Positions 10,192-24,779 of a stretch of 24,817 nt of DNA are shown in pieces. Location of the stretch: IMG/VR virus record IMGVR_UViG_3300031600_000306, positions 1-24,817 of that record, one strand, 5' to 3'. The notes under the pieces were generated by a model. The model ran no database searches. It saw only the letters and a list, made by a program, of their open reading frames with translations, and was not told the origin of the DNA. The number at the start of each line of letters is the position of its first letter. The first letter of the stretch is position 1. A program made the position numbers and the translations under genes. Source of the DNA: a virus.

Positions 10192-10814
10192 TGGCGTTTC
10201 ATGAGGTTCGATTCCCGGACAACATCAGTCGGGGCGCGCGGGGCGGACCACAGCGCCGCACGCAGATCGTGGAGCTGGCGTCTGGGCGCGAAGAGCGCAA
10301 CGCCTCTTGGTCCGCCTCCCGGCGCCGATACGACGTGTCCTACGGCATTCGCCGCGCCGATGACTTGCACGCGGTGGTCGAGTTCTTCGAGGCCCGTCTC
10401 GGGCGGCTCTACGGCTTCCGGTTCAAGGACTGGGCCGACTACAAGAGCAGCCTGCCCTCGCGAGCCGTCTCGGACGAGGATCAGCTGCTCGGCACCGGCA
10501 CCGGCGCCTTGGCCACTTTCCAGCTGCGCAAGCGCTACGGGACCGACGAGCACTACTGGTTGCGGACGATCCAGAAGCCGGTCGAAGGCACGGTGCGCGT
10601 CGCCGTGGGCGGCGTTGAGCAGTTCTCGGGCTGGTCGGTCAACTCTACCACTGGCCTCGTCACCTTCTCGTCGCCGCCCGCGCTGGGCGCGGCCGTGACA
10701 GCTGGTTTTGAGTTCGACGTGCCGGTGCGCTTCGACTCGGACCTGATGGACGTCACGCTCGACATCGAGCGCCTCGGATCGATCACCTCGATCCCCCTTA
10801 TCGAAATCCGCTGA
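10191..10814 (+). CDS. Distal tail protein, DUF2460 / TIGR02217 type (GTA gp12-like)
   Basis: 207 aa. The N-terminus FHEVRFPDNISRGARGGPQRR followed by TQIVELASGREERNASW is the signature of the DUF2460 family, found in the Rhodobacter gene transfer agent (gp12) and related siphophages. There it forms the distal tail ring below the tube. Also seen: RRYDVSYGIR and FFEARLGRLYGFRFKDWADY. The ATG overlaps the tape-measure stop. In GTA clusters the next gene is the DUF2163 hub, but here about 3.2 kb of fibre genes are interposed before it. Confidence 0.9.
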   Translation: MAFHEVRFPDNISRGARGGPQRRTQIVELASGREERNASWSASRRRYDVSYGIRRADDLHAVVEFFEARLGRLYGFRFKDWADYKSSLPSRAVSDEDQLLGTGTGALATFQLRKRYGTDEHYWLRTIQKPVEGTVRVAVGGVEQFSGWSVNSTTGLVTFSSPPALGAAVTAGFEFDVPVRFDSDLMDVTLDIERLGSITSIPLIEIR

Positions 10815-10886: not shown

Positions 10887-13298
10887 ATGACGACAGACAC
10901 CCTTCGCCAGGTCTTCGGCACCCTGCGCACGCCGAACGGATCGCCGTTCCCGAACAAGTCCCTGAAGTGGTTTCGGGAGCGCCGAAAGGCGGTCGCGCAG
11001 GGATCTTCGGTCGTACTCGATGATCCCTTTATCGTGACAACCGATGCGGTGGGCGAGATCGACACCGATGTGATGGCCGGAGCTTACCTCGTGCTTGCGA
11101 CACTCTCGGACGCCGACCGGTATTTTCGGGTGGTTGTGCCGGATCAGGCTGGACCATTCGATATCTCAAGCCTGATCGACGGGCCTATGGTAGAGCCCGA
11201 CGACCTGACCCAGTTTGAGGCGCTTGTCGCCAAGGCAAAAGCATGGGCGAACGCGCCGGAAGACAGCGTGGTCGAGAGCGGAGAGTTCTCTGCAAAGCAC
11301 TACGCGGCCAAGGCCGAAGATGAGCGTCTCGGCGCGCAAACGGCCGTCGACAATGCCGTAGCAGCCGCTCTTGCGAAAGCGGAGGAGTGGGCTGAGAACC
11401 CGGAAAACGTTGAGGTCGAGGGCGGAAAATACTCAGCCAAGCACTGGTCCGCCAAGTCGGAAGAACAGCGCGTTGCTTCCGAGGCTGGACGCACCGGCTC
11501 TGAACTCGCGGCGACGAATGCAGCAGCTGCTCGCGATGCCGCTTTCGTCAACGCGAATGTGTTTCCCGACATCGCAACTGGCCGAGCGGCGGTTGCTGAC
11601 GGACAGCAGTTTCAAGTCGTGACGGGCACTAAGATCATCCGCTATCGTCGGGACAGCAGCAGCACACAGACTGAGGTGGCGCGGTATCCATCGGCTGACC
11701 CGGTGCTTGCGCTATTGTCAAAAAACAATGCCTTCGCAGAATTCGTTTTCCCCGATGAGGGACTTCGTTTCGCAATTACTGACGAAAACGGCGCTGTTCT
11801 CTACATCGAGGAAAACAGCCCCCTAGGCCAGATCAAGGGAGACCCAATCTTCCTAGACGATGGGTATATCTGGGCGGTAACTGACTTTTTCGGCAACCTG
11901 CTTGGTGGAGAGCGCGCTGATTTTGGGCCTGGGCCTGAGCCAGAAGTGCTGCCGTTCGTGGACGCCGATCTGCGGGCGTCGATAGGCTTCAGCGGGAATT
12001 TCCTTGTTGCAAAGGCTGGCGGGGCAATTCTGTCGCCGTCTGTCAACGGTGCGCGGCTGCGATGGACCGACAAGATCGACACCATCTACCATCGGCGGGA
12101 AATGGCAACCGACGCGATGCCAGATGGGTTTACGCTTCTACTCGCATCGCTGATGTATGGACAATCGCTTGTCGCTGGCAGCTTTGGTCAACCTGTCAGC
12201 CGTGCGGCAGTCCGATCCGGGCGGGCATTGATGCTGAATGGTGGCACTTATCCGTTTAAATCCCCTGTTACCGTGGATGCGCGCCTGACCGATGACCGGA
12301 TGCTGACGCTGGTGGACATGCGCGAGATTGGCGCAGGGGAGGTGCCAGTTACGGGTGTGGGATATTGGCTGACAGGCGCTAGCGGCATCGAGGCAGCGAC
12401 AGCCGTGTTTGGCGTATCGTGCGGCAAGGGCGGGGCGACCATCGCCAATCTGGCAAATGGCACGCAGCCATTTATCAACCTGATCCTTGCTGCTGAGCGT
12501 GCGCATGGCTTCGCCAAGGTGCGAGGGGTCGAAGTCGAATTCCCTTCGATCATCTTTGACCAAGGGGAAAGCAACTATAGCACTGCTCAGTTAAGCTATA
12601 AGGCGGCGCTTCTAGATCTGCAAAGCGATCTTGAAGCCGACATCAACGCCATCACTGAAGGGGCCGACACGATCCCGCTTTTGTGTTGGCAGCCGTCATC
12701 TTGGACCGCCACCCTGTTCAACCGCACGGAGGGGCTTTCCACTCTAGCAATCATGGATGCAGCGATCACTGATCCCACCAAGGTCAAGCTGATCGGGCCG
12801 CAGTATTTCTTCCCCTATTTTGAGAGTGACGGTATCCATCTGACCGCTCTGGGATACAGGCTGGCCGGAGAATATGCGGGGCGGGCTCAAAAACTGGATC
12901 GCGACGGTGATCCAAGCGGCGCGGTTTATGCCACCGCTGCGTCGGCATCTGGCACAACCCTAACAGTGACATTCAACAGGGGCGGGCTGTCTTTGGACAC
13001 CGCACTTGTCACAGATCCCGGCCAGAACGGATTGAGGGTGTTTGACCCAGTGGCCGTCACCACGGCGACACTGACAGGGATCAGCATAATAGGCGACACG
13101 TTGACGGCAACTCTATCCACAACGCTCTCTGGGGCAAATTGGGTGTTGGGCATCGCAGACATGGGAACGGCAGGCCAAGACGGCGGACCCACAACGGGGC
13201 CGCGTAGCAACATCCGCGATTCCTCAGCCGACATCGCCTCAACCGGCGACCCAATGTATAACTGGGCGTGCCATCAGCGCATCGCCATCAACGTTTAA
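10887..13298 (+). CDS. Tail fibre with SGNH / sialate O-acetylesterase-like domain
   Basis: 803 aa, not a standard GTA baseplate gene. Residues 1-110 look like a beta attachment domain. Two copies of a known fibre motif follow, W...G-[EK]-[FY]-S-A-K-H-[YW] (Trp at 120 and 168; 48-residue period), then an adapter region. Residues about 415-665 form an SGNH-type hydrolase: block I YGQSLVAG (S427), Gly-containing SCGKGGATI near 510, block III DQGESN (558-563) and DGIHLTALGY (D648, H651). QGESN is typical of the SASA/sialate O-acetylesterase group, so it probably removes acetyl groups from surface glycans during adsorption. The last 130 residues are beta-rich. A TGGAGG precedes the ATG. GC drops inside the gene (see findings). 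The exact substrate cannot be told. Confidence 0.8.
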   Translation: MTTDTLRQVFGTLRTPNGSPFPNKSLKWFRERRKAVAQGSSVVLDDPFIVTTDAVGEIDTDVMAGAYLVLATLSDADRYFRVVVPDQAGPFDISSLIDGPMVEPDDLTQFEALVAKAKAWANAPEDSVVESGEFSAKHYAAKAEDERLGAQTAVDNAVAAALAKAEEWAENPENVEVEGGKYSAKHWSAKSEEQRVASEAGRTGSELAATNAAAARDAAFVNANVFPDIATGRAAVADGQQFQVVTGTKIIRYRRDSSSTQTEVARYPSADPVLALLSKNNAFAEFVFPDEGLRFAITDENGAVLYIEENSPLGQIKGDPIFLDDGYIWAVTDFFGNLLGGERADFGPGPEPEVLPFVDADLRASIGFSGNFLVAKAGGAILSPSVNGARLRWTDKIDTIYHRREMATDAMPDGFTLLLASLMYGQSLVAGSFGQPVSRAAVRSGRALMLNGGTYPFKSPVTVDARLTDDRMLTLVDMREIGAGEVPVTGVGYWLTGASGIEAATAVFGVSCGKGGATIANLANGTQPFINLILAAERAHGFAKVRGVEVEFPSIIFDQGESNYSTAQLSYKAALLDLQSDLEADINAITEGADTIPLLCWQPSSWTATLFNRTEGLSTLAIMDAAITDPTKVKLIGPQYFFPYFESDGIHLTALGYRLAGEYAGRAQKLDRDGDPSGAVYATAASASGTTLTVTFNRGGLSLDTALVTDPGQNGLRVFDPVAVTTATLTGISIIGDTLTATLSTTLSGANWVLGIADMGTAGQDGGPTTGPRSNIRDSSADIASTGDPMYNWACHQRIAINV

Positions 13299-13309
13299 GG
13301 AGAAATCTT

Positions 13310-14083
13310 ATGGCTTTCGGAAACCGTATTGTTTTGGAGAACGCCGTTGCTCCGGCAGGTGCTCGGCTGATCGACATGGACGAGCTAGATCGCGCAGCGA
13401 TTGCCTGTGATGGGCTGGTCAGTTTCGCCCGCGCGAAAAAACGCTCCGCTGTAAACGTAGGGTCCAACTTTCAGGACCGAATGCTACAGAACATTGCAGT
13501 TAATGGCACCGCTAAGACCTTTACCGCCGCCGACGCTTTGCTCAATAACAGGGCGACCGTACTGCAGGATGGCAATGGCGCCGTTCCATACAAGATTTCT
13601 GATCTAGCCATCCCGGCGTCATGGACCTTCGCGGCGGTCGTTCGCACGGGCGCGCTGAAGAACGGCAACCACATACTGACGGTGCACGGTTCGTCGGTGC
13701 AATATCTTGTCGCCGGATTGGTTAATGGTTCTGTGTCCATTCAATCAGTTGATGAGGCAGGACAAACAACAATCCTGCCGACAGGCGCGATGGCCTCAAA
13801 CACAAGTATGTTCCTTTTCGTTAGCTATGACGCGGCGACAAAAACTCATCGCATGGGCGTCAACACTCTGTCGGGCGGTTCTTTCGTAGCAGTCAACCCC
13901 TTCCCTGAGAGCGCGGGTGGAGATGCTTTTTATCCGTTTGGTAGAGGTGATTTAAATACCAACCACTTCACTTGCCGATGGTCAATGTTCGGAGTCTGGC
14001 AGAATGCCTATGGCACGGGCGGGGACTTCGACTCGCAGTTTGCGGGCCTCTTCTCGGCAGCTACATCCTACTATGCGCTTTAA
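13310..14083 (+). CDS. Unknown tail/fibre-associated protein, possibly LamG-like fold
   Basis: 257 aa from the ATG at 13310, chosen for the AAGGAG eight bases upstream; a longer frame from 13268 would run inside the previous gene. No family recognised with confidence. It has a run of beta strands, with ASWTFAAVVRTGALKNGNHIL, followed by QYLVAGLVNGSVSIQSV and MFLFVSYDAATKTHRMGVNT, that resembles LamG/concanavalin-type jelly rolls. Such folds often bind carbohydrate. It sits directly behind the esterase fibre, shares its lower GC, and is followed by the conserved hub gene, so it was probably acquired with the fibre as a host-range cassette. Function as an adhesin or fibre cap is inference. Confidence 0.6.
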   Translation: MAFGNRIVLENAVAPAGARLIDMDELDRAAIACDGLVSFARAKKRSAVNVGSNFQDRMLQNIAVNGTAKTFTAADALLNNRATVLQDGNGAVPYKISDLAIPASWTFAAVVRTGALKNGNHILTVHGSSVQYLVAGLVNGSVSIQSVDEAGQTTILPTGAMASNTSMFLFVSYDAATKTHRMGVNTLSGGSFVAVNPFPESAGGDAFYPFGRGDLNTNHFTCRWSMFGVWQNAYGTGGDFDSQFAGLFSAATSYYAL

Positions 14084-14113
14084 ACTCCACGACGCTCGCA
14101 AGCAGGTGAACCG

Positions 14114-14998
14114 ATGAAAGCGCTACCTGCTGGATTTTCATTGCATTTGGTCGATGGCACCACCACCCTCGCTTGGTGTTGGCGCATCACGCGTGCTGAC
14201 GGGATGGTTCTTGGCTTCACCGATCACGACCGGGCCCTTTCATTCGAAGGCACCACCTTCGAACCGGAGAGTGGCCTCGTCGCGTCCGAGGTCCGCTCCG
14301 GCTCGGACCTCTCGGTCGATGCCCAAGACGCCGAGGGCGTCCTGTCCTCCGACCGGATCACCGAGACAGACATCCTCGACGGCCGCTGGGACAATGCGGC
14401 GGTCGAGGTCTGGCGCGTGAACTGGCAGGACACGTCGCAGCGGGTGCTTATGCGGCGCGGTGCAATCGGTCAGATCAGGCGCGGACGGCTGGCCTTCGTA
14501 GCCGAGGTCCGCAGCATGGCGCATGTGCTCGGCCAGACGGTCGGGCGCACCTTCCAGTCCTCCTGCGACGCGGCGCTGGGCGACACACGCTGCGGTATCA
14601 ATCTCGAGGCGGCAGCTTTTAAGGGCACCGGCTCCGTGACGGACCTTCTGCGCGACCGCGCCTTCCTCGCCTCTGGCATCAGCACCTTTGCCGATGGCTG
14701 GTTCTCGAGCGGCACGGTCGAGTGGACGTCCGGGGCGAACGTCGGACGGCTGGCGGAGATCATGCTGCACGAGGTCTCGAGCGGCATCGTGACGGTGACC
14801 CTGCTCGAAGCACCGGTGCGGCCTATCACGGCGAGCGATGCCTTCGTGATCCGCGCGGGCTGCGACAAGCGCGCGGAGACATGCCGGGAGAAGTTCGCCA
14901 ACGTCGTGAACTTCCGGGGCTTCCCGCACATCCCCGGCCAAGACGCCATCATCCGATACGCCACCAAGGACGGTGGGCACGAGGGCAACGTTCTATGA
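14114..14998 (+). CDS. Baseplate hub protein, DUF2163 (GTA gp13-like)
   Basis: 294 aa. The N-terminus has the family pattern LPAGFSLHLVDGTTTLAWCWRI (shown in part) and GFTDHDRALSFEGTTFEP; the middle has the VLMRRGAIGQIRRG and FVAEVRSMAHVLGQ blocks. Four cysteines close the protein: C151 and C160 (CDAALGDTRC), C250 and C257 (CDKRAETC), followed by FPHIPGQD. In lambda gpL and related hubs a comparable four-cysteine set holds an iron-sulfur cluster; the same is likely here. The hub links the distal tail ring to the NlpC/P60 enzyme and the large TIM-barrel protein. The stop overlaps the next ATG (ATGA). Confidence 0.9.
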   Translation: MKALPAGFSLHLVDGTTTLAWCWRITRADGMVLGFTDHDRALSFEGTTFEPESGLVASEVRSGSDLSVDAQDAEGVLSSDRITETDILDGRWDNAAVEVWRVNWQDTSQRVLMRRGAIGQIRRGRLAFVAEVRSMAHVLGQTVGRTFQSSCDAALGDTRCGINLEAAAFKGTGSVTDLLRDRAFLASGISTFADGWFSSGTVEWTSGANVGRLAEIMLHEVSSGIVTVTLLEAPVRPITASDAFVIRAGCDKRAETCREKFANVVNFRGFPHIPGQDAIIRYATKDGGHEGNVL

Positions 14999-15480
14999 CC
15001 ACCACAACTCGACGCAGCGCGCCGCGCCCGGCTGATCCGGAAGCGGTGGTGGCGGCCGCGCGCGCTTGGCTCGGCACGCCCTACCACGACCAAGCGAGCC
15101 TCAAGGGCGTGGGCTGCGACTGCCTCGGGCTGGCCCGGGGCGTCTGGCGCGACGTGGTGGGCGCGGAGCCGGTGCCGGTGCCGCCCTACAGCCGCGACTG
15201 GGGCGAGACCGGGCGGCGCGAGGTGCTCTTCGAAGGTGCCGCGCAAGCCATGATCGGGATCCCGGTCGAGAGCGCCGGGCCCGGCGACATGATCCTTTTC
15301 CGGATGCGCCGGGGCGCCATCGCCAAGCACGTCGGGATCATCACCGCCCCTGACCGCTTCGTGCACTCCTACGACCGCCTGGGCGTGATCGAGGAACCGC
15401 TCACCGATGCCTGGCGGCGGCGCATCGCATTCGCCTTCCGTTTTCCGCGCCCCAAGCGCGTCCGCAGAAAGAACCCCTGA
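14995..15480 (+). CDS. Tail-associated NlpC/P60 cell-wall peptidase (GTA gp14-like)
   Basis: 161 aa from the ATG overlapping the hub stop. Catalytic signs of the NlpC/P60 family: Cys43 in GCDCLGLARGVW, His112 in KHVGIIT, and a third polar residue, probably His124 (VHSYDR). GDMILFRM before the His is also typical. It would cleave peptide bonds in peptidoglycan locally at the tail tip so the tube can pass, as for lambda gpK and GTA gp14. The N-terminal ARAWLGTPYHDQ is the usual start of the fold. The C-terminus is strongly basic (PKRVRRKNP). Confidence 0.92.
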   Translation: MTTTTRRSAPRPADPEAVVAAARAWLGTPYHDQASLKGVGCDCLGLARGVWRDVVGAEPVPVPPYSRDWGETGRREVLFEGAAQAMIGIPVESAGPGDMILFRMRRGAIAKHVGIITAPDRFVHSYDRLGVIEEPLTDAWRRRIAFAFRFPRPKRVRRKNP

Positions 15481-15483
15481 AAC

Positions 15484-18400
15484 ATGGCCACTCTTGTCCT
15501 CGGAGCCGTGGGTGCCGCCCTCGGCGGCTCCTTCATTTCCGGCACCTTCCTTGGGCTGACCGGCGCGGCTATCGGCGGCTTTGTCGGCTCCACTATCGGC
15601 TCGGTGGTGGACAGCTGGATCGTGTCGTCGCTGATGCCGGGGCAGCGGATGGAGGGCGCGCGGCTGGACAGCCTGCGGATCACGTCCTCGACCGAGGGCG
15701 CAATTCTGCCTCGGCTCTACGGGCGCATGCGGATGGGCGGCAACGTGATCTGGGCCACCGATTTCCGCGAGGAAACCAGCACGACCACCCAAGGCGGCGG
15801 CAAGGGCGGCGGTGGCGGCAAGGTCACCACGACGGAGTACCTTTACTTTGCCAGCTTCGCCGTCGCGATCTGCGAAGGCCCCATCAGCGGGATCGGCCGC
15901 ATGTGGGCCGACGGCAAGCCCATGGACATGGAGGGCGTGGTATGGCGCTGGTATGCTGGCGACGAGGGCCAGCTGCCCGACACCTTCATCTCAGCCAAGA
16001 TGGGCGCGGCGGCGACGCCTGCCTATCGTGGCACCGCCTACATCGTGTTCGAGGAACTGGCGCTCGAGAAGTTCGGCAACCGCCTGCCGCAGCTGTCCTT
16101 CGAGGTGTTTCGCCCGCTCGCCGATTCCGACACCGCCGAGGGGCTGACCAAGGCGGTGACGATCATCCCGGCTTCGGGCGAGTTCAGCTACGCCACGCAG
16201 ATCGTCCGGAAGACGGTCGGAGGGACCACCTTTTTGGGGACGACGTCAGGAGGAGAAACCTTCGCGGAGAACGCGAACGCTCTGGCCAACACGGCGGACT
16301 TCGTGGTCGCGATGGACCGCCTTCAGGCGCAGGCTCCCGAGGTCGAGAGCACCTCGCTCGTCGTCGCATGGTTCGGAGACGACTTGCGCGCCGGGAACTG
16401 TAAGGTGCGCCCGGGCGTGGAGGTGGCCAGCAAGAGCACGACGCCCGCCTGGTCGGTCAACGGGGTGGCGCGCGCGAGCGCCTACCTCGTGAGCCGCGAC
16501 AGCGAGAACCGCCCGGTCTACGGCGGAACGCCAAGCGACCTCTCGGTGGTGCAGGCCATTCAGGAGCTGAAGGCGCGCGGCCTGCGCGTGACCTTCTACC
16601 CCTTCATCTTGATGGACGTGCCCTCGGGCAACACGCTGCCGAACCCTTACAGCAACAACGCCGCCAGCGCTGGGCAACCAGCCTTCCCTTGGCGCGGGCG
16701 GATCACCTGCAGCCCGGCCGCGGGCTTCACAGGAACGGTCGACAAGACCGCCACGGCGGCGTCACAGGTGGCGGCGCTGTTCGGCTCGGCCACGCCCGCC
16801 AACTTCTCGGTCTCGGGAACGACCGTCACCTTCACCGGCTCCGCAGGCGAGTGGAGCCTGCGCCGGATGATCCTGCATTACGCACACCTCTGCGCGGCGG
16901 CCGGAGGCGTGGATGCGTTCATCATCGGCTCGGAGATGCGCGGCGTGACGCAGGTCCGGTCGGCGGCTGGGACCTATCCGTCAGTCCAGCAGCTGCGCGA
17001 CCTTGCTGCCGCCGTCCGCTCGATCCTCGGCGCGGGCACGAAAATCAGCTACGCCGCCGACTGGTCGGAGTATTTCGGCCACCACCCGGACGATGGCAGC
17101 GGCGACGTCTACTTCCACCTCGACCCGCTCTGGGCGGACGCGAACATCAACTTCGTCGGCATCGACAACTACATGCCGCTGTCCGACTGGCGCGACGGCT
17201 TCGAGCACCTCGACGCCCAAGAGTGGCCGGTGATCTACGACCGCGGCTACCTGCAGTCCAACATCGAGGGCGGCGAAGGCTTCGACTGGTTCTACGCCAG
17301 CACCGCCGACCGGGCCGAGCAGGACCGCACCGCGATCAGTGACGGCGCGGCGGGCAAGCCGTGGGTCTTTCGCAACAAGGACCTGCGGAGCTGGTGGAGC
17401 AACCAGCACTTCAACCGGCCGGGCGGCGTCGAGAGTGGCACGCCCACCGGGTGGGTGCCGCAGTCGAAGCCCTTCTGGTTCACCGAGTTCGGGTGCCCGG
17501 CTGTCGACCGGGGCTCCAACCAGCCGAACGTGTTCTATGATCCGAAGTCCTCCGAAAGCCTCGTGCCCTACTTTTCGCGGGGCTGGCGCGACGACTCCAT
17601 CCAGCGCGCCTATCTCGAGGCGACGCTCGACCATTGGGGCAAGCCCGCGAACAACCCGGTCTCGAGCGTCTACGGCGACCGCATGATCCGGATCCCGGAG
17701 TGCGCTGCCTGGACGTGGGACGCCCGCCCCTATCCGTTCTTTCCCGAGCTGCAGGACATCTGGACGGATGGGGCGAACTGGCGCCTCGGGCACTGGCTGA
17801 CCGGGCGGCTGGGTGCTGTCTCGCTGCAGGCGCTGGTCCGCGCCCTCTGCCTGCGCGCCGGGATGCCCGAGGAACGCATCGACGTCAGCGGGCTCTGGGG
17901 CGCGGTCGAGGGCTATGTGATCAGCGCGCTGGAATCGCCCCGCACTTCGATCACGACGCTCGCCCGGCACTTCGGCTTCGACGCCATCGAGAGCGAAGGC
18001 ATGATCCGCTTCCTGATGCGCGGCCGCGCGCCGGTCCTGACAATCAGCCCTGACGACATGGTGGCGGCGCAGAGTGAAAACGGCGAGGTACTCGAGCTTA
18101 CGCGCGGGCAGGAGACCGAGCTGCCGCAAGCCCTGAAATGGCAGATGGCGCGCTCGGACGAGGACTACGACTCTGCACTGGTCGAGGCGCGCAGGATCAC
18201 AGTGGAGGCGTCGCGCGTCAGCGCGGAGGCGTTCCCGATGGCCTTGCCACCGGAAGAGGCGGAGCGGCGCTGTCGCCGCGCGCTGATGGAGGCATGGGTG
18301 GGCCGCGAGAGCGCCGCCTTCCGCCTGCCGCCATCGCGGCTGGCCATCGACCCGGGCGACGTACTGCGGCTGGATCACGACCAGCGCTTGATCGAGCTGC

Positions 18401-19482
18401 GCGTCGTCTCGGTGGCCGACAGCGACTCGCGGGCGATGGAAACGCTCTTTCAGGACCGCGTCGTCTACGATCTGCCGCCCGGCCAGCCGCGCGCCGCCTC
18501 GCTGGCGCGCCCGGTGGTGTTCGGCGGGACGGAGGTGGTGTTCCTCGACGTGCCGCAGTTGAGCGAGCAGGAAACGGACTACCAGCCGCTGATCGCGGCC
18601 TTCGCCCGGCCATGGCCCGGGAACGTCGCGGTGTGGCGCAGCTATTCCGACGAAGGCTTCGAGGTCTTCCAGACCTTTGGCACCCGCGCGCGCCTCGGCA
18701 CACTTGCCGCCGACCTCGCGGCTGGGCCTACCTCCCGCTTCGACCTGGCGAACCAGCTGGTGATCGATCTGCGCAGCGGAACGCTTGAGAGCGTGACCGA
18801 CCTCGCGCTGTTCGGCGGTGCGAACGCTCTGGCGATCGAGAGCGCGCCGGGCGTCTGGGAGATCGTGCAGGGCAGCAGCGCCGAGTTGGTGGCAACGGGC
18901 CGGTACCGTCTCACCCGCCTCCTGCGCGGGCAGCGCGGGACCGAGCACGCGGTGGCCGCGAACGTCGTGGCGGGTGCCCGCGTCGTCGTGCTGGACGAGG
19001 CGGTGGCGCGGATGCCTGTGGCACAAGCCGACCTCGGCCTGCCATGGAACTGGCGCATCGGCCCGGCATCGCTGCCCTTCACGGACGACAGCTATGTCGC
19101 GGCGGCCTTCACGCCAGCTGGCGTCGGTCTGCGCCCCTTCTCGGTCGGGCACGTCGAGCAGCCGTGGCTTCGGGGCCGCACGCCGGGCGACCTGACCATC
19201 CGCTGGACGCGCCGCGACCGGTCCTTGGTCGGCGACAGCTGGGCGGCGGTCGAAGTGCCCATGTCCGAGTCGAGCGAGGCCTATGAGGTCGATATCCTCG
19301 ACGGGGCAACCGTCAAGAGAACTTTGACAGTTGCCACCACAAGCGCGGTCTACACCGCTGCCCAGCAGACGGCGGATTGGGGATCCACACTGGGGCCCGG
19401 CGACACCCTCGATGTCTGCATCGCGCAGCTGTCCTCGCTCATCGGGCGCGGCGCCCTCCGAACGGTAACTCTGAACTTCTGA
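15484..19482 (+). CDS. GTA TIM-barrel-like host-specificity/baseplate protein (gp15/gpJ-like)
   Basis: 1332 aa, close to the usual size of GTA gp15. N-terminal glycine-zipper hydrophobic stretch (about residues 5-40) followed by LPRLYGRMRMGGNVIWATDF. A TIM-barrel-like domain runs from about residue 440 to 740, with FIIGSEMRGVTQVR, ISYAADWSEYFGHHPDDGSG and NFVGIDNYMPLSDWRDG. A phage-tail_3-type domain comes after about 810 (TTLARHFGFDAIESEGMIRF), then fibronectin-like C-terminal modules. It forms the tip complex that contacts the host and may have glycosidase ancestry; activity is not established. Start is four bases after the peptidase stop with weak Shine-Dalgarno, so probably coupled. Confidence 0.93.
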   Translation: MATLVLGAVGAALGGSFISGTFLGLTGAAIGGFVGSTIGSVVDSWIVSSLMPGQRMEGARLDSLRITSSTEGAILPRLYGRMRMGGNVIWATDFREETSTTTQGGGKGGGGGKVTTTEYLYFASFAVAICEGPISGIGRMWADGKPMDMEGVVWRWYAGDEGQLPDTFISAKMGAAATPAYRGTAYIVFEELALEKFGNRLPQLSFEVFRPLADSDTAEGLTKAVTIIPASGEFSYATQIVRKTVGGTTFLGTTSGGETFAENANALANTADFVVAMDRLQAQAPEVESTSLVVAWFGDDLRAGNCKVRPGVEVASKSTTPAWSVNGVARASAYLVSRDSENRPVYGGTPSDLSVVQAIQELKARGLRVTFYPFILMDVPSGNTLPNPYSNNAASAGQPAFPWRGRITCSPAAGFTGTVDKTATAASQVAALFGSATPANFSVSGTTVTFTGSAGEWSLRRMILHYAHLCAAAGGVDAFIIGSEMRGVTQVRSAAGTYPSVQQLRDLAAAVRSILGAGTKISYAADWSEYFGHHPDDGSGDVYFHLDPLWADANINFVGIDNYMPLSDWRDGFEHLDAQEWPVIYDRGYLQSNIEGGEGFDWFYASTADRAEQDRTAISDGAAGKPWVFRNKDLRSWWSNQHFNRPGGVESGTPTGWVPQSKPFWFTEFGCPAVDRGSNQPNVFYDPKSSESLVPYFSRGWRDDSIQRAYLEATLDHWGKPANNPVSSVYGDRMIRIPECAAWTWDARPYPFFPELQDIWTDGANWRLGHWLTGRLGAVSLQALVRALCLRAGMPEERIDVSGLWGAVEGYVISALESPRTSITTLARHFGFDAIESEGMIRFLMRGRAPVLTISPDDMVAAQSENGEVLELTRGQETELPQALKWQMARSDEDYDSALVEARRITVEASRVSAEAFPMALPPEEAERRCRRALMEAWVGRESAAFRLPPSRLAIDPGDVLRLDHDQRLIELRVVSVADSDSRAMETLFQDRVVYDLPPGQPRAASLARPVVFGGTEVVFLDVPQLSEQETDYQPLIAAFARPWPGNVAVWRSYSDEGFEVFQTFGTRARLGTLAADLAAGPTSRFDLANQLVIDLRSGTLESVTDLALFGGANALAIESAPGVWEIVQGSSAELVATGRYRLTRLLRGQRGTEHAVAANVVAGARVVVLDEAVARMPVAQADLGLPWNWRIGPASLPFTDDSYVAAAFTPAGVGLRPFSVGHVEQPWLRGRTPGDLTIRWTRRDRSLVGDSWAAVEVPMSESSEAYEVDILDGATVKRTLTVATTSAVYTAAQQTADWGSTLGPGDTLDVCIAQLSSLIGRGALRTVTLNF

Positions 19483-19492
19483 AGGACACCCC

Positions 19493-20236
19493 ATGGCCGA
19501 CACCTCCACGAACCTGCTGCTGCCATTCATTCTGGCGGCGCAGGCCCAGAAGCATGTCACCCACAACGAGGCCCTGCGGCTGCTCGACGGGCTCATCCAG
19601 CTCTCGGTCCTCGACCGCAACCTCGCGACGCCGCCCGGTTCGCCCGCCGAGGGCGCGCGGTACATCGTGGCCACCGGCGCGACCGGTGCCTGGTCGGGCT
19701 GGGCCGGGGACATCGCGCTCCGGTCCGACGGCGCTTGGGTTCGCCTGCCAGCCCGCACCGGCTGGGTGGTCTGGGTGCAGGATGAGGCCAAGGTGGTCGT
19801 GCGGATCGGTGCTGCCTGGACGCCGCTGGACGAGGCCATGGGCCTTCTCGCTCAGGCGGGCAGCGTCGACGTGGCGCTTGGCGCGCTGGGCGGCACCACC
19901 GGCATGGCGGTGCTTGAGCAGACGCTGTCGGGGCTCTCCGGTGCGTCGGTGACCTCCACCATCGAGATACCGGACCGCGCGATCTGCCTCGGCGTCTCAG
20001 CACGCACGGTGACGACAATCACCGGCGCGACCTCCTTCGACTGCGGGATTGCAGGCGAAACCACCAAGTTTGGCGGCTCGCTCGGCGTCGCCGCAGGAAG
20101 CACCAACGTCGGCGTGATCGGCCCGCAGGCGTTCTATGCCGACACGCCCATCGTGCTCACCGCGCAGGGCGGCAATTTCACGGGCGGCTCGGTCCGCATC
20201 GCCATCCATTACCTGACGCTGGGAGTACCGAACTGA
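19493..20236 (+). CDS. DUF2793 domain tail protein
   Basis: 247 aa. The first 120 residues show the DUF2793 pattern: NLLLPFILAAQAQKHVTHNE, then LLDGLIQLSVLDR, PAEGARYIVATGATGAWSGW and WVVWVQDEAK. The C-terminal half is Gly/Thr-rich and beta-like (TSTIEIPDRAICLGVSA; FDCGIAGETTKFGG), as in fibre tips. In GTAs and related phages DUF2793 proteins are linked to tail fibres or receptor binding, and this one directly follows the TIM-barrel protein. A GAAGGA seven bases ahead supports the ATG. Exact location on the virion is unknown. Confidence 0.82.
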   Translation: MADTSTNLLLPFILAAQAQKHVTHNEALRLLDGLIQLSVLDRNLATPPGSPAEGARYIVATGATGAWSGWAGDIALRSDGAWVRLPARTGWVVWVQDEAKVVVRIGAAWTPLDEAMGLLAQAGSVDVALGALGGTTGMAVLEQTLSGLSGASVTSTIEIPDRAICLGVSARTVTTITGATSFDCGIAGETTKFGGSLGVAAGSTNVGVIGPQAFYADTPIVLTAQGGNFTGGSVRIAIHYLTLGVPN

Positions 20237-20281
20237 TGCGCGGGGAAATCCACATTGACGAGCAGAAAGAAGGAGCAGGCG

Positions 20282-20548
20282 ATGATGCCGAATTGGGAAA
20301 CGATACAGGCGGTCTGGCCACTGCTCCTGGGCTTGGCCGGTCTCTGGGCGAGAATTGAAGTGGCTCTCTCAAAGGCTTCCGCGCAGAGCAAACAGAACGA
20401 GCGCGAGATTGCCAAGCTCGAGGTGAAGGTCGAGGCGCAGGCCGCCTCGGCAGCACAGCAAGCCGTGCAGCTGGGTCGCATCGAGGAAAGCCTGCTCGGC
20501 ATCGGCAGGACCCTCGAGCGCCTTGATCGGAAGTTCCCCGACCGCTGA
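20282..20548 (+). CDS. Small membrane / coiled-coil protein, lysis-associated
   Basis: 88 aa from ATG 20282, chosen for AGGAG six bases upstream; a TTG at 20255 would lengthen it by nine residues. One N-terminal membrane segment (IQAVWPLLLGLAGLWARIEVAL) is followed by a heptad-rich helix (NEREIAKLEVKVEAQAAS, then AVQLGRIEESLLGIGRTLERLD). This layout fits an inner-membrane spanin (Rz-like) or a DUF2730-like small phage protein. It sits between the tail genes and the endolysin, so a lysis role is likely, but no outer-membrane spanin with a lipobox was found nearby. Not identified with confidence. Confidence 0.65.
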   Translation: MMPNWETIQAVWPLLLGLAGLWARIEVALSKASAQSKQNEREIAKLEVKVEAQAASAAQQAVQLGRIEESLLGIGRTLERLDRKFPDR

Positions 20549-20591
20549 TTGTGCATCAGCGCACGATCAAAACTCTATCAAGAAAGTCACC

Positions 20592-20617
20592 ACCCGCCCT
20601 CGCAGGCGGGTTTTTTT
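20592..20617 (+). terminator. Intrinsic terminator between tail and lysis genes
   Basis: ACCCGCC (20592-20598), loop CTCGCA, GGCGGGT (20605-20611), then a T-run to 20617: a textbook rho-independent terminator. It lies only 20 bases before the endolysin start with no visible promoter between, so downstream lysis genes need read-through, antitermination or a promoter inside the hairpin region. Confidence 0.85.
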
Positions 20618-20637
20618 ATGCCCGGAAGGAGCCCGCA

Positions 20638-21414
20638 ATGGCCCGAGATAATTTCACCGCCTGCATGGCGGAAATCTTCGCCCACGAGGGCGGCTACGTC
20701 GATCACCCGAAGGACCCGGGCGGTGCCACGAACATGGGCATCACCATCGGGACGCTGCGCGACTGGCGCGGCGGGCCGGTGACCAAGGACGACGTCCGGA
20801 GCCTGACCAAGCGGGAGGCCGAGACCATCTACCGCGCGCGGTACTGGAACCCGGTGCGCGGCGACGATCTCCGCCAAGGCGTCGATCTTGTCGCCCTCGA
20901 TCCCGCCGTGAACAGCGGCGTCAGGCGCGGCGTGCAATGGCTGCAGCGCGCGGTGGGCGCCACCGCCGACGGCAAGATGGGCCCAGCGACACTGGCTGCC
21001 GCTAACGACGCCACACCGGTCGAGGCCATCAAGCGCGCCTGCGCGGTTCGCATGGGCTTCTTGCGCGGCCTGCGCACCTGGAGCACCTTCGGGCGCGGCT
21101 GGTCGGCACGGGTGGCGCGCGTCGAGGCTGTGGCGCTGCGAATGGCCGCCGAAAGTATCGGGGCGCAGGCACGTCCTGTCCTGATTGAGGAAAAGGACCG
21201 TGCCACCCAGCAGGCGAGGCGCGAAGCACAAACCGCGAGTGGAACTGCTGCGGCAGGCGGCGGTGGTATCACCTTCGCCGACATTCCGGAGTGGGCCCTG
21301 ATCGGCGGCGGGATCCTGCTGGCCCTCGCCATCATCAACATGATCGGCCGCAGGCGCCACGATCTGGCGCGGGCGGCGGCAATGCAGCAGGTCGCAGAGG
21401 AGGCCAAGCCATGA
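20638..21414 (+). CDS. Endolysin, GH108 family N-acetylmuramidase with C-terminal membrane segment
   Basis: 258 aa from the ATG at 20638 (GGAAGGAG upstream; a longer frame from 20551 would run through the terminator). GH108 signature: HEGGYVDHPKDPGGATNMGI with catalytic Glu17. The peptidoglycan-binding part follows (YRARYW, DPAVNSGVRRGVQWLQRAVG, DGKMGPATLAAA). It cleaves the glycan backbone at lysis. Unusually, residues about 219-240 (EWALIGGGILLALAIINMIG) form a membrane segment followed by RRRHD, after a Gln/Ala linker. This suggests tail anchoring with the enzyme domain in the cytoplasm or, by membrane insertion, the periplasm. Overlaps the holin start (ATGATG). Confidence 0.85.
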   Translation: MARDNFTACMAEIFAHEGGYVDHPKDPGGATNMGITIGTLRDWRGGPVTKDDVRSLTKREAETIYRARYWNPVRGDDLRQGVDLVALDPAVNSGVRRGVQWLQRAVGATADGKMGPATLAAANDATPVEAIKRACAVRMGFLRGLRTWSTFGRGWSARVARVEAVALRMAAESIGAQARPVLIEEKDRATQQARREAQTASGTAAAGGGGITFADIPEWALIGGGILLALAIINMIGRRRHDLARAAAMQQVAEEAKP

Positions 21415-21620
21415 TGAGTGAACTGCAACCGTTAATCCGGATTGCTCTTTATATCGGAGCAGGATATTTGGCAAAGGCAGGCTTGCCCCCCGAACTGGTC
21501 CACTTAATCAGCAATGATCCCGGCATGATCGATTTGATCGGCCAGGCGGCGGCGGGTCTGGTCGCCTTGGTCGGACTGGTCTGGTGGCGGATCGCCAAGC
21601 GGATGCGGTGGACGACGTGA
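21411..21620 (+). CDS. Small holin-like membrane protein (Pam3-gp28-like)
   Basis: 69 aa from the first of two adjacent ATGs (21411 and 21414); AGAGGAGG lies seven bases ahead of the first. Two membrane segments: about 8-24 (LIRIALYIGAGYLAKAG) and 42-58 (IGQAAAGLVALVGLVWW), with a basic tail (RIAKRMRWTT). Short two-segment proteins of this type next to endolysins in Rhodobacterales phages are annotated as Pam3-gp28-family putative holins. Two adjacent starts are also a classic holin/antiholin arrangement, but here the products would differ by only one Met. Holin role is from size, topology and position. Confidence 0.72.
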   Translation: MMSELQPLIRIALYIGAGYLAKAGLPPELVHLISNDPGMIDLIGQAAAGLVALVGLVWWRIAKRMRWTT

Positions 21621-22012
21621 ACTGGGTCCTAAGCCTTCTCACCGGAGGCATCGTTGAGAAGTTTACCGAACCCCTGCTCGAGGCGCACCGCTTGCGACTG
21701 GCCGCCCAGAACGACAGCGAGCGCCTGACGGCCGAGAAGCAGATCGCCAGCCTCGAGGCGGCGCGGGCTATCGCGGTGGCCGAGCAGTCGGATCGGTGGA
21801 GCGCCACCCGCATCGGGCGGCTGCTGATCGTGGTGCCCTTCGGCGTCTGGTGGACCGCCGTCTTCGCAGTCTCGATCCTGAATCCGCTTTTTGGCTGGAC
21901 GCTCACCATCGACGACATTCCCTCGCGCTTCTGGGATATCGCCACGGTCCTGATCCCCGCTGTGATCCTTGGCGATGCTGGCGCGCTCGTGGCCCGGCGC
22001 TGGTCGCGGTGA
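21617..22012 (+). CDS. Holin-like membrane protein (3TM-type)
   Basis: 131 aa from GTG at 21617, which overlaps the previous stop (GTGA). N-terminal short hydrophobic piece (WVLSLLTGGI), then an amphipathic charged helix (LEAHRLRLAAQNDSERLTAE, KQIASLEAARAIAVAEQ), then two membrane segments (RLLIVVPFGVWWTAVFAVSI; IATVLIPAVILGDAGALVA) and an Arg tail. This organisation fits the 3TM holin-family proteins common beside endolysins in alphaproteobacterial phages. It overlaps the next gene by a GTGA junction, making a tight lysis operon. Confidence 0.65.
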   Translation: MNWVLSLLTGGIVEKFTEPLLEAHRLRLAAQNDSERLTAEKQIASLEAARAIAVAEQSDRWSATRIGRLLIVVPFGVWWTAVFAVSILNPLFGWTLTIDDIPSRFWDIATVLIPAVILGDAGALVARRWSR

Positions 22013-22224
22013 AGCCGGTGCCGGTGGTCGAGGTATCCGACGACGGCCAGAGTTTCACGATCACGCTGAACGCGTGGTCGGGGACCTACGCGATGGACGC
22101 CCTGCCGCAGCAGCTGAAGTTCTATCGGCGGCTGCGGGACAGGAAGAACGGTGCCTATGCGCAGCACTACGAGCCGACGGTGCGCGCCTTGGAGAAGTTC
22201 GAGATTACAGGCATGACGCACTAA
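22009..22224 (+). CDS. Conserved-looking hypothetical protein at the end of the lysis operon
   Basis: 71 aa from GTG at 22009 (GTGA overlap with the upstream stop). A longer frame from 21796 is a shadow of the holin-like gene. Sequence: beta start (VPVVEVSDDGQSFTITLNAW), a YAMDALPQQLKFYRRLRDRK helix and a HYEPTVRALEKFEITGM end. No membrane segment and no known family recognised. Because it is translationally coupled to membrane proteins it could be a lysis accessory or regulator. Its stop is only three bases from the stop of the opposing hydrolase gene, so transcription converges here. Confidence 0.65.
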   Translation: MKPVPVVEVSDDGQSFTITLNAWSGTYAMDALPQQLKFYRRLRDRKNGAYAQHYEPTVRALEKFEITGMTH

Positions 22225-22227
22225 AGT

Positions 22228-22938
22228 TCAGTTATTTTTCAATGCAGCAGAAATCAACGGGATTAAGATTTGATACCCAAGCGGTGAAAGATGGATTCCA
22301 TCGGCAAGAAGGACACCATTTAAAGGCGCATCGCCCTCGCTCATAGCGCCGGTGGGATCAACAAAGGTACAACGAGAAACTGCGGCGCATGCATCAAAGG
22401 CCGCTTGTCTAACAGTTGCGCTTGCCCGGGGATTAATCGCTTCTCGACCGAACGTCGTGCGTGATATCGGTGGAGGGCTAACCAGCACTATCGGAATATT
22501 ATTCGGAATTCTATGTAGAATTTCAGCATATCGAGTACCGATCCCATGTGTGCGGCCCTGCAGGATATCATTAGTACCGATCATAACTATCACGCCAGCA
22601 GATCTCTGAAGGGATTGATAAATTGGCAATGATTCTAGCAACTGATCTGATCGTTGCCCACCAATGCCGAAGTTTACCGAACGTGGAACGATTGCTGCAG
22701 TTATGAGCGCCTGGATATTAGAGTCGCCAAGAAAAACCGTCGCCCCTTCTGGTACACTACTGTCCATTTGGCGGTGAACTTCACGTGCCGCAAAGATGCT
22801 CTCTTGTTCAGCTGCTTCGACAACTCCTAAGCGGATAAGGATCCGCTCCACAACATCCGTTTTTAAGACTGCAATTGCGGAAAAAACATGTAGAAAAGCA
22901 ATGTACGCCACAAATACCCAGATCACTAACTTGCGCAT
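22228..22938 (-). CDS. Membrane-anchored SGNH/GDSL hydrolase
   Basis: 236 aa on the opposite strand. N-terminal uncleaved membrane segment (about 4-24, LVIWVFVAYIAFLHVFSAIA), then all SGNH blocks: GDS (S73) in VFLGDSNIQ, Gly in NFGIGGQRSDQL (91-94), GTND (N123) and DGIHLSPLGY (D213, H216). Such enzymes hydrolyse esters, often O-acetyl groups on glycans, with the active site outside the inner membrane. GC is low (24/60 and 27/60 in two sampled lines, against 44/60 in a structural-gene line), so it looks like a moron acquired separately. The likely role is modification of host surface polysaccharide in the lysogen; the substrate is unknown. The ribosome site is weak (AAGGGAAAG). Confidence 0.85.
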   Translation of the reverse strand: MRKLVIWVFVAYIAFLHVFSAIAVLKTDVVERILIRLGVVEAAEQESIFAAREVHRQMDSSVPEGATVFLGDSNIQALITAAIVPRSVNFGIGGQRSDQLLESLPIYQSLQRSAGVIVMIGTNDILQGRTHGIGTRYAEILHRIPNNIPIVLVSPPPISRTTFGREAINPRASATVRQAAFDACAAVSRCTFVDPTGAMSEGDAPLNGVLLADGIHLSPLGYQILIPLISAALKNN

Positions 22939-23000: not shown

Positions 23001-23204
23001 TCAAGCGGCTATCTGGATTTGGGCCAGCCGCTCGGGCCCCATCTGGCGCGCAAGCGCGGCGATCTCGTCGAAGAACTCCGAAAGCATTTCGTTGAGCGTC
23101 GAGCCAATCGCGAAAGCGAGCGTCTCCATGTGCAACGAATTCAGCTCAGGCGCACGCTTCGCAAGTGTCTGCTGGTAGATCGTCATCGCCGCTTGGTTTG
23201 CCAT
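23001..23204 (-). CDS. Hypothetical 67-residue protein upstream of the SGNH hydrolase
   Basis: Start at 23204 preferred over 23210 because AGGAGGG (23212-23218) is seven bases from the former and only one from the latter. The protein is mostly helical: MANQAAMTIYQQTLAKRAPE, LHMETLAFAIGSTLNEMLSEF, FDEIAALARQMGPERLAQIQ. It has no membrane segment, signal peptide or recognised motif. It lies 62 bases upstream of the hydrolase on the same strand and may share its transcript, and it is divergent from the methyltransferase. No toxin-like partner is adjacent, so an antitoxin role is not supported. Confidence 0.6.
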   Translation of the reverse strand: MANQAAMTIYQQTLAKRAPELNSLHMETLAFAIGSTLNEMLSEFFDEIAALARQMGPERLAQIQIAA

Positions 23205-23228
23205 GTTCATTCCCTCCTGTGCTGTGTC

Positions 23229-23256
23229 GTCCGCGTCGCAGGGCTGCGTCGCGGAC
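23229..23256. promoter_or_regulatory. Imperfect inverted repeat (12-bp arms) in the divergent intergenic region
   Basis: GTCCGCGTCGCA (23229-23240) and TGCGTCGCGGAC (23245-23256) pair with one T-T mismatch around a GGGC loop. It lies between the minus-strand small gene and the methyltransferase, just upstream of the small gene's Shine-Dalgarno. It may be an operator or an mRNA hairpin in that gene's leader; no T-run follows on either strand. Confidence 0.55.
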
Positions 23257-23289
23257 TGTAAGCACCATCGCTCTGCTCGCGCTTACAGT
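23255..23289. promoter_or_regulatory. Second inverted repeat, ACTGTAAGC / GCTTACAGT
   Basis: Perfect 9-bp arms (23255-23263 and 23281-23289) with a 17-base spacer; it abuts the previous repeat. Arm spacing near two helical turns fits a dimeric repressor better than a hairpin. On the minus strand its outer arm overlaps TACACT, a possible -10 element. No convincing -35 was found at 16-18 bases, so the promoter itself is uncertain. Confidence 0.5.
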
Positions 23290-23399
23290 GTAGAGAAATC
23301 AGAGCAATTTCCTAGTTTTATGATCGCGGCGCGGCTGGCCAAGTACCCACGCCTCTCCGCGCCTCGGAGCCTCCGCACAACTGACGCACCCTGCCGGGC

Positions 23400-24374
23400 A
23401 TGAACATGTCCTTTCGATATTTGAGCGTCTGCAGCGGCATCGAGGCCGCCAGCGTCGCATGGGAGCCGCTCGGCTGGCGCCCCGTCGCTTTCAGCGAGAT
23501 CGAGCCGTTCCCATCGGCGGTTCTCGCCCATCATTACCCAAGCGTCCCGAACTGGGGCGACATGACCCGTTTTAAGGAATGGCCGGATGCAGCTGTCGAT
23601 CTTCTCATTGGTGGAACCCCCTGCCAGTCCTTCAGCGTCGCCGGGCTTCGAAAAGGACTGGACGATCCGCGCGGCAACTTGGCCCTCGTCTATCTGGGAC
23701 TGGTTGACCGCTACCGGCCCAAGTGGGTGGTTTGGGAGAACGTCCCCGGCGTCCTGTCGTCGAGCGGCGGACGGGACCTTGGTGCCTTCCTCGGGGGCTT
23801 GGGCGAACTCGGGTATGGGTGGGCCTACCGAGTGCTGGACGCTCAGTACATCCGAACACGCCGCTTTTCCGGTGCCGTTCCCCAGCGGCGACGCCGTGTG
23901 TTCGTTGTCGGATATCTTGGAGACTGGCGACCTCCCGCCGCGGTACTTTTTGAGCCCGAAAGCCTGCGCGGGCATCCTCCGCCGCGCCGAGAACCGGGGC
24001 AAGGCGCTGCCCACGATGTTGCAGGGAGCCTTGTCAGCAGTGGTCGCGGAGTCGCCAACTGTGGAGAAACCAGAGGACAAGACCCCGTCGTCGGATTGAT
24101 CCGGCAGGGCTTTGGTGGCGGCAACACCTCCGGACCAATCGACGTCGCTGCCTGCCTGACCGCCAAAGGGCAGCGCATCGATTTCGAGGTCGAAACATTT
24201 GTGGCGCATACATTGCGAGGTGAGGGCTTTGACGCGAGCGATGCCGGAGGGACCGCACGATACCGCAAACATTCGCGCTGCCTCTCATGGATCGAGCCGG
24301 TCTTACATTGCCACGCGCTGGGCAGTTCGTCGCCTGGCCCCGCTCGAGTGCGAGCGCCTGCAGGGATTTCCTGA
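23400..24374 (+). pseudogene. C5-cytosine DNA methyltransferase, reading frame broken before its C-terminus
   Basis: Phage Dcm-type methyltransferase. Motif I YLSVCSGIEAAS (AdoMet), motif IV GGTPCQSFSVAG with catalytic Cys75 (Cys73 if the second ATG at 23406 is used), motif VI WENVPGVLSS and motif VIII QRRRRVFVVG are all present, then the usual FGGGNTSGPIDVA and AHTLRGEGFDAS blocks. After about 24245 this frame loses the family pattern and stops at 24374. The missing end, with motif X, is intact in the next frame (24245-24513). A single extra base or loss of two would explain it. It may be inactive, or this may be a sequencing error. It probably protects phage DNA or marks it against host restriction. 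Confidence 0.75.
23587..24099 (+). CDS. Overprinted ORF inside the methyltransferase gene
   Basis: 170-aa frame lying wholly inside the methyltransferase, in its +1 frame. Unlike the other shadow frames it has a proper ribosome site: TAAGGA (23573-23578) eight bases before the ATG. Its sequence resembles hypothetical proteins I recall accompanying such phage methylases: SPASCRRAADGTLVPSSGAW, NSGMGGPTECWTLSTSE, then SLSDILETGDLPPRYFLSPK and CAGILRRAENRGKALP. Recurrence of the RYFLSPKACAGILRRAE segment would mean either true overprinting or repeated annotation of the same shadow. Function is unknown. Confidence 0.45.
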   Translation: MQLSIFSLVEPPASPSASPGFEKDWTIRAATWPSSIWDWLTATGPSGWFGRTSPASCRRAADGTLVPSSGAWANSGMGGPTECWTLSTSEHAAFPVPFPSGDAVCSLSDILETGDLPPRYFLSPKACAGILRRAENRGKALPTMLQGALSAVVAESPTVEKPEDKTPSSD

Positions 24375-24536: not shown

Positions 24537-24568
24537 AGCTCCTCGGTTAATTCCGGGGGGCTTTTTTT
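24537..24568 (+). terminator. Intrinsic terminator after the methyltransferase
   Basis: AGCTCCTCGG (24537-24546), loop TTAATT, CCGGGGGGCT (24553-24562) with two G-U pairs, then seven T (24562-24568). It closes the methyltransferase transcript and probably the right end of the phage genes. Confidence 0.85.
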
Positions 24569-24650
24569 CGTTTGGAAACAATGTGTGGCGAGTTTTGGTG
24601 CGTGGTCCGGTCAATATCTTGAGTCACGCCAGAGTCAAAACAAAACGACT

Positions 24651-24702: not shown

Positions 24703-24779
<77 letters not shown>

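Follow-up and report, generated by a model that had tools for sequence, protein, structure and literature searches.

A temperate phage with predicted SGNH enzymes on its tail fibre and at the host envelope

We propose that a temperate siphophage of alphaproteobacteria (Rhodobacterales-type) carries two predicted SGNH enzymes that would act at two sites: an esterase within an exchangeable tail-fibre cassette, and a second enzyme, encoded by an accessory gene (a moron), that is probably directed to the host envelope. Taken as a whole, this explanation, which draws on sequence comparisons and structural models, seems to us evenly poised between right and wrong. Esterases like that of the fibre are familiar; the envelope enzyme is encoded by a rare additional gene and may alter the phage's own docking site. 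The window, by which we mean the whole stretch of DNA that was analysed, comprises 24,817 nt (positions 1 to 24,817 of IMG/VR record IMGVR_UViG_3300031600_000306).

Table 1. Features of the window that are discussed in the text.
Feature	Position	Strand	Remarks
DUF2460 tail protein	10191-10814	+	left flank of the fibre slot
Tail fibre / receptor-binding protein, 803 aa	10887-13298	+	N-terminal ~270 aa common to sister phages; C-terminal SASA/CE20-type SGNH module
Partner gene, 256 aa	13313-14083	+	directly after the fibre gene
Baseplate hub protein (Gp84_N / BR0599, "DUF2163")	14114-14998	+	right flank of the fibre slot
GTA-TIM / Phage-tail_3 tail protein	15484-19482	+	query for gathering relatives
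GH108 endolysin	20551-21414	+	start probably closer to 20638
Inserted low-GC segment (0.479)	22225-23000		gene-free gap in L008; missing from L007
Envelope-targeted GDSL/SGNH hydrolase, 236 aa	22228-22938	-	Ser73, Asn123, Asp213, His216; one N-terminal hydrophobic segment
Small gene upstream of the SGNH gene	23001-23210	-	same strand as the SGNH gene; in L008 without the SGNH gene
att core, 51 bp	24702-24752		inside tRNA-Met(CAT), 24703-24779

The initial annotation had described a prophage with one SGNH esterase on the tail fibre and another behind a membrane segment, both encoded by genes of low GC content. Our results agree with this description. The motifs named for the two proteins are at the places given, and fold models of both proteins, together with family matches described below, identify both as SGNH enzymes. 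The GC content is 0.587 for the fibre gene and 0.478 for the minus-strand gene, as compared to 0.685 for the tail TIM gene and 0.65 for the window. The prophage call was right as well: an att core lies within a tRNA-Met gene at the end of the window, and the identical sequence is found close to the integrase of a sister prophage (48 bp of it are found in the region between the methylase and the integrase in L008), so the phage is temperate.

The esterase module of the fibre spans approximately residues 405-803. It contains GQS at residue 425 (with Ser427), DQGESN at 558, and DGIHL at 648 (with Asp648 and His651), so that the GQS, QGE(S/N/D), and DxxH motifs of SASA/CE20-type enzymes are all present; two distant relatives of the fibre lack the aspartate of DxxH and retain the histidine. 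The fibre matches the PHROG tail-fibre family 4201 (3.6e-66). Against the SASA family of Pfam (PF03629) it scores 20.2 bits (5.1e-4), which is below the curated cut-off of 24.8, and two relatives of the fibre (L002 and L171) pass this cut-off. The AlphaFold2 model has an SGNH fold and matches the tailspike of cyanopodophage Pan3 (Z 31) and the CE20 esterase XAC1771 (Z 23.4), as well as SIAE and NanS. The protein thus combines a CE20/SIAE/CE6-type fold with membership in a phage receptor-binding protein family. SGNH fibres are common in phages, and those of Klebsiella prophages are active esterases (PMC13123978); the fibre of Acinetobacter phage Aristophanes is a deacetylase (PMC8471582). The architecture and the fold of the window's fibre were computed here, and judging by its relatives, de-acylation is its most likely activity. 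The module would remove acyl groups (most likely O-acetyl) from the surface glycan where the virion docks. A virion esterase on the fibre, as had been suggested, is supported and is of a known kind.

The fibre is only about 26-31% identical to the fibres of named phages and 46-50% identical to those of two contigs. In the sister phages, about 270 N-terminal residues of the fibre are kept (62-68% identity) and the C-termini are different, while most other proteins that the window and its sisters have in common are 90-98% identical. This implies that the C-terminus has been swapped. In L003 and L295, the fibre gene likewise precedes a relative of the partner gene (36.8-39.5% identity), and in most of the other phages examined, a SASA fibre is followed by a protein of about 190-260 aa; in one Acinetobacter relative, the annotation is that of a ConA-like lectin. 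The fibre esterase and the partner gene are a known, widely exchanged receptor-binding or host-range cassette.

The minus-strand protein contains GDS (residue 71), GIGG (91), GTND (121), and DGIHL (213), which are SGNH blocks I, II, III, and V in the expected order, and its relatives keep GDS, the glycine of block II, G-x-N-D, and D-G-x-H. It matches Lipase_GDSL_2 (PF13472) with 64.4 bits (2.5e-17; the cut-off is 32.9), so the SGNH assignment is not due to chance. Sequence-profile matches to SGNH enzymes that resemble PAF-acetylhydrolases or sialate O-acetylesterases reach 5.8e-21, and residues 53-231 match PHROG 14008 (1.2e-18). The AlphaFold2 model has an SGNH fold with Z scores of 20.5 and 20.2 to 2hsj and 6njc (a PAF-acetylhydrolase-like protein and a sialate O-acetylesterase); the catalytic domains of OatA and PatB are also among the matches, and this fold is common to lipases, thioesterases, and O-acetyltransferase domains. 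Residues 4-22 form a hydrophobic segment (mean hydropathy 2.39) that could be an anchor or a cleavable signal, and given this signal, the protein is probably targeted to the inner membrane or the periplasm. The closest sequence relative, from L188 (41% identity), does not have this segment. NCBIfam has no match for either enzyme, and PADLOC has none for the minus-strand enzyme.

Could one of these enzymes be a duplicate of the other? We rejected this as a recent event, as a profile comparison gave a probability of 37.5% over just 75 columns and the best fold matches differ. The two enzymes belong to different branches of the SGNH enzymes and are not duplicates. Their common chemistry therefore does not imply a common substrate.

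The minus-strand gene is a rare accessory gene (a moron) that, as the sequence comparisons indicate, is an insertion close to the prophage's right end. L008 has homologues of the genes on either side (22012-22224 and 23001-23210), separated by a gene-free stretch of about 75 bp. The gene is on the strand opposite to the late genes and near att, that is, outside the late operon; a scan for consensus promoters upstream of it found no convincing site. In sister phage L004, this position is occupied, in the same orientation, by a gene for a different envelope SGNH protein, and the fibre of L004 lacks a recognised esterase domain. This second protein has no match in phages, none at E<=1e-8 in 296 genomes of Pseudogemmobacter's family, and only itself in IMG/VR. 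For the window's enzyme, we found no match at E<=1e-10 in the same 296 genomes and no relative among plasmids, and a single-protein query of IMG/VR confirmed no close relative. With the window protein as the query, just 2 of 50,697 phage records have a relative of it, and both also have a relative of the fibre. The earlier suggestion of an envelope-targeted, predicted esterase encoded by a temperate phage, in an accessory position, is supported.

Whether the two enzymes co-occur in related prophages had been set as a test that could refute a link between them. The outcome is mixed. The anchored enzyme has its relatives in a single group of Acinetobacter prophages. A SASA fibre is present in 8 of 8 testable carriers as compared to 5 of 53 non-carriers. 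(L221 and L240 were dropped from the carriers because their matches are fibre proteins with a GDSL domain.) After dereplication, which leaves few independent lineages, the association has p = 1.8e-4 to 0.011. The carriers span fibre clusters that are 60-79% identical to one another. On the other hand, the fibre of L273 is 99.8% identical to that of the carrier L235, yet L273 does not have the enzyme. Given this pair and the combination in L004, fibre and enzyme can be dissociated. Furthermore, PF13472 has no match in L295, which among whole contigs is the closest relative of the fibre cassette. The enzyme gene of the Acinetobacter phages shares the strand of the tail genes and lies upstream of the tape measure; in these phages it may thus be expressed late and not during lysogeny. 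That the two enzymes are also associated in another, distant group of phages suggests connected surface chemistry as their target, but is no proof of it.

Envelope SGNH genes are also found in temperate Vibrio phages: the gene in PE002A encodes a hydrophobic N-terminus, and ZF14_PE001 has a lipoprotein-like protein encoded beside an acyltransferase, a repressor, and an integrase. We considered the GDSL gene between tailspike and integrase in the P22-like E. coli phage 683R2 as another parallel and rejected it, as its product has no signal sequence.

Our best reading is that the minus-strand enzyme is a surface-modifying accessory enzyme, involved in lysogenic conversion or receptor destruction. 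It would most likely de-acylate a glycan of the host envelope, in the lysogen or in the producing cell, and thereby alter the phage's own receptor or a competitor's. A stricter version holds that both enzymes take off the same O-acetyl mark, so that the lysogen erases the virion's receptor, excludes the phage itself, and lets progeny go. The association in the Acinetobacter carriers, the fibre relatives in both phage records with a relative of the enzyme, and the likeness of both models to sialate O-acetylesterases speak for it, but the two SGNH families are different, the envelope enzyme of L004 accompanies a fibre in which no esterase domain was recognised, the 99.8% identical fibre of L273 occurs without the enzyme, and L295 has none; we consider this version unlikely. 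The two genes might instead be unrelated cargo with only a fold class in common. We think this quite possible, though we lean against it: many phages have SGNH fibres, the turnover of accessory genes is fast, and the window was chosen for having both enzymes, but the two are also found together in another phage group, more often than the base rate of that group.

Two other explanations concern the minus-strand enzyme only, and we would be surprised by either. Working with a host acyltransferase, in the style of PatA/PatB or of AT3 and SGNH pairs, it might add acyl groups rather than remove them. SGNH partners can indeed work with separate membrane acyltransferases (PMC9558356), a fibre deacetylase paired with a prophage acetyltransferase has been proposed for Serratia phage BZS1 (PMC7556043), the fold matches include OatA and PatB, and the SGNH gene of ZF14_PE001 directly adjoins an Acyl_transf_3 gene. 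But the top fold matches are hydrolases, and no acyltransferase was found among the window genes that were scanned with Pfam. Alternatively, it might aid lysis, as a peptidoglycan O-acetylesterase or a lipase that sensitises an O-acetylated wall to the GH108 muramidase. The endolysin gene is about 0.8 kb away, and AbaSI_5, an Acinetobacter phage with the enzyme, has an annotated N-acetylmuramidase. However, the minus-strand gene is oriented opposite to the lysis genes, was inserted after them, and is missing from two relatives, and the Acinetobacter gene lies beside the tape measure, outside the lysis module.

In prophage receptor conversion as it is known, O-acetylation adds acetyl groups. 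It is conceivable that temperate phages with esterase fibres also carry an envelope-anchored, receptor-destroying esterase that strips their own docking mark from the host, so that lysogens exclude the phage and progeny leave freely, with the same rare pair in two distant groups, alphaproteobacterial and Acinetobacter phages. We doubt that this is so; if it were, the acetyl-removing envelope enzyme and the de-acetylating virion would together be a bacterial-virus counterpart of the receptor-destroying enzymes of animal viruses. With a second phage group named, and with natural variants that have the same fibre with the enzyme (L235) or without it (L273), the idea is directly testable.

The fibre resembles known SGNH/SASA fibres and tailspikes (Aristophanes gp41, the receptor-binding proteins of Klebsiella prophages, and Pan3) in having a C-terminal SGNH esterase on the receptor-binding protein of the virion; gp63.1 of E. 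coli phage G7C is reportedly another such esterase. It differs from them in its Rhodobacterales-type host group, and is tied to them by the fold match to Pan3 and by PHROG 4201. The minus-strand enzyme is similar in sequence profile and fold (Z about 20) to the PAF-acetylhydrolase-like and sialate O-acetylesterase SGNH enzymes (2hsj, 6njc, and 7pzg), with matches that begin past the hydrophobic segment and have 16-21% identity. Members of PHROG 14008 (in Acinetobacter phages 5W and AbaSI_5 and related prophages) likewise have an N-terminal hydrophobic segment and occur with SASA fibres, but they are 27-29% identical to the window's enzyme, and their genes share the strand of the tail genes and lie upstream of the tape measure, rather than near att on the opposite strand. 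Serotype conversion by O-acetylation, as in Sf6 (Oac) and D3, is carried out by acetyltransferases. The likeness there is a prophage gene that is assumed to change the O-acetylation of the receptor glycan and to exclude superinfection; none of the window genes that went into the Pfam scan matched a membrane acyltransferase of this type. Like the window, the proposed BZS1 model has an oppositely oriented prophage gene that would alter the same surface glycan as a fibre deacetylase, but the lysogen enzyme of BZS1 is a transferase, whereas the window's is, by its sequence, a putative SGNH hydrolase.

The two SGNH proteins reported by the initial annotation are both present in the window, and they belong to different branches of the fold: one is in the virion and the other carries an export segment. 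The virion protein is the tail fibre (803 amino acids), in which Ser427, Asp648 and His651 bear out the proposed motifs. It scores below the cut-off for Pfam's SASA family but matches the tail-fibre family PHROG 4201 (3.6e-66). Its AlphaFold2 model (mean pLDDT 75.7) matches the tailspike of cyanopodophage Pan3 (Z 31, 3.5 A across 370 residues), the CE20 esterase XAC1771 (Z 23.4), SIAE (Z about 19) and NanS (Z 18.8). Residues 1-270 are shared with the fibres of the sister phages L004 and L007 (62-68%) and the C-termini are different, whereas identity reaches 90-98% in most of the other proteins that they share (73% in the tape measure of L007), which argues that the fibre is a host-range cassette. 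The following gene belongs to this cassette, and its relatives come directly after the fibre in two other contigs (L003 and L295). In most of the other phages that we examined (from Acinetobacter, Serratia, Vibrio, Pseudomonas and Klebsiella hosts), a SASA fibre is followed by a protein of ~190-260 amino acids, annotated in one case as lectin-like; a Ruegeria phage has an endolysin-type gene in this position. In Klebsiella prophages, such fibres have esterase activity (PMC13123978), and the SGNH tailspike of Aristophanes de-acetylates capsule (PMC8471582). The fibre is of an ordinary, already familiar kind.

The envelope enzyme (236 amino acids) is above the Pfam GDSL cut-off and has the full set of SGNH blocks and one N-terminal hydrophobic segment. 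The segment is followed by "AIA", so a cleavable signal is possible. The structures matched by its model (mean pLDDT 77.1) at Z 20 are a PAF-AH-like protein and a sialate O-acetylesterase from Bacteroides. The gene, which runs opposite to the late genes, is a moron: the inserted segment has a GC content of 0.48, and in the relative L008 the flanking genes adjoin and the enzyme gene is absent. L007 also lacks the enzyme, with no PF13472 (GDSL) match in its 19.5-kb contig.

The window is an entire 24.8-kb virus record and represents a temperate siphophage with a GTA-like tail. Its genes run from the terminase end through portal, protease-capsid fusion, tube, tape measure, DUF2460, fibre, hub protein, NlpC/P60, GTA-TIM tail protein and DUF2793 to a GH108 endolysin, and relatives of its GTA-TIM tail protein (72-76% identity) are mostly from Rhodobacterales genomes. 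The contig terminates at a tRNA-Met. Because the core sequence there is shared with an integrase-side site and 48 bp of the region recur in L008, we conclude that the right end is an attachment site; the arrangement in L008 looks like the unintegrated form. In L007, the methylase lies beyond a diverged copy of this end, as if it had been added past an older att-like site. The window's own C5-methylase lacks ~170 bp of the L008 gene and its C-terminal part is in another frame, so it may be broken. A stretch upstream of it has two copies in the sister prophage, at 80-82% identity, and L008 and L316 share a GC-rich piece of ~30 bp; these repeats might have a regulatory or recombination role. On L316 and L317, the neighbours of the sister prophage include genes for a serine recombinase and a type IV secretion coupling protein, which suggests that its integration site is within or close to a mobile element.

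Coordinates of features in the window and in related contigs
Feature	Source	Position	Details
Tail fibre	window	10887-13298 (+)	
Fibre partner gene	window	13313-14083 (+)	
Envelope enzyme	window	22228-22938 (-)	
Repeat upstream of methylase	window	23233-23376	
C5-methylase	window	23400-24513	324 aa
C5-methylase	L008	15276-16580	434 aa
Att/terminator end	window	24556-24740	
Diverged copy of this end	L007	16754-16938	87%; between lysis-side genes and methylase
Att core	window	24702-24752	51 bp, inside tRNA-Met; identical site near tyrosine integrase in L004's sister prophage
Att region shared with L008	window	24697-24744	48 bp; in L008, between methylase and integrase
GDSL gene in two pieces	L262, Acinetobacter prophage	4338-6246	pieces ~1 kb apart
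SGNH and acyltransferase pair	L322, Vibrio phage ZF14_PE001	2680-4489	between repressor and integrase

Does the envelope enzyme occur together with SASA fibres? With the window's enzyme as the query, just 2 of 50,697 phage records matched (5W and AbaSI_5), and both have SASA fibres. In IMG/VR, its relatives are one group of Acinetobacter prophages and a short contig (L188). We gathered 80 Acinetobacter prophages via a tail protein, using neither the enzyme nor the fibre gene, and 61 of these cover both slots. The enzyme never occurs without a SASA fibre: eight prophages combine the two, five have the fibre only, and 48 have neither (Fisher p = 4e-7 before dereplication). When loci with similar tape measures and fibres were merged, p ranged from 1.8e-4 to 0.011, depending on the threshold. 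The carriers' SASA modules are 60-79% identical to each other. Linkage may contribute to the association, as the carriers occupy two tape-measure clusters and the two genes are ~5 kb apart. Furthermore, L235 has the enzyme and L273 does not, yet their fibres are 99.8% identical, so that fibre does not need the enzyme. In these prophages (L202-L280), the slot upstream of the tape measure holds single genes of many different lengths and is possibly a hot spot for accessory genes. Also common in the same group (L221, L240 and 14 other contigs) is another kind of SGNH fibre, which is of the PF13472 type and has open frames of 550-790 amino acids.

Within the window's own clade, the SASA-type fibre was in the window alone among 136 relatives that cover the fibre slot. 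An SGNH profile also matched the window alone, but it missed a more distant protein in L004. This protein (270 amino acids, with an N-terminal hydrophobic segment) is, unexpectedly, in the same place and orientation as the window's envelope enzyme, matches the GDSL family weakly (E = 0.005, below the cut-off), and retains GDS, the block II glycine and DxxH. As it differs from the window's enzyme, envelope SGNH genes of at least two families are found at this insertion place. No recognised esterase domain was found in the L004 fibre, which has just a weak beta-helix match, so an esterase fibre is not obligatory beside an envelope SGNH.

The interpretation in the initial annotation is supported in part, by the temperate context, export segment, moron insertion and statistical association in a second phage group, but L235/L273 and L004 show that fibre and enzyme can be dissociated. 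Its proposal that the envelope enzyme strips from the lysogen's surface the same mark on which the virion enzyme acts is hypothetical. Both proteins are predicted to be esterases; the envelope enzyme would act on a surface glycan, and its predicted effect is a receptor change. A real alternative is that the envelope SGNH is a partner in acyl transfer. In ZF14_PE001, a lipoprotein-like SGNH adjoins an acyltransferase, and this pair is likely a surface-acylation module. We found no description, in the open-licence literature that we searched, of a prophage envelope SGNH esterase that acts on its own phage's receptor. Unlike the ordinary fibre, the envelope enzyme and its recurring pairing with SASA fibres merit testing. 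For a Serratia phage, an acetyltransferase encoded by the prophage has been proposed to pair with a deacetylase on the fibre (PMC7556043), which speaks for the acyl-transfer alternative.
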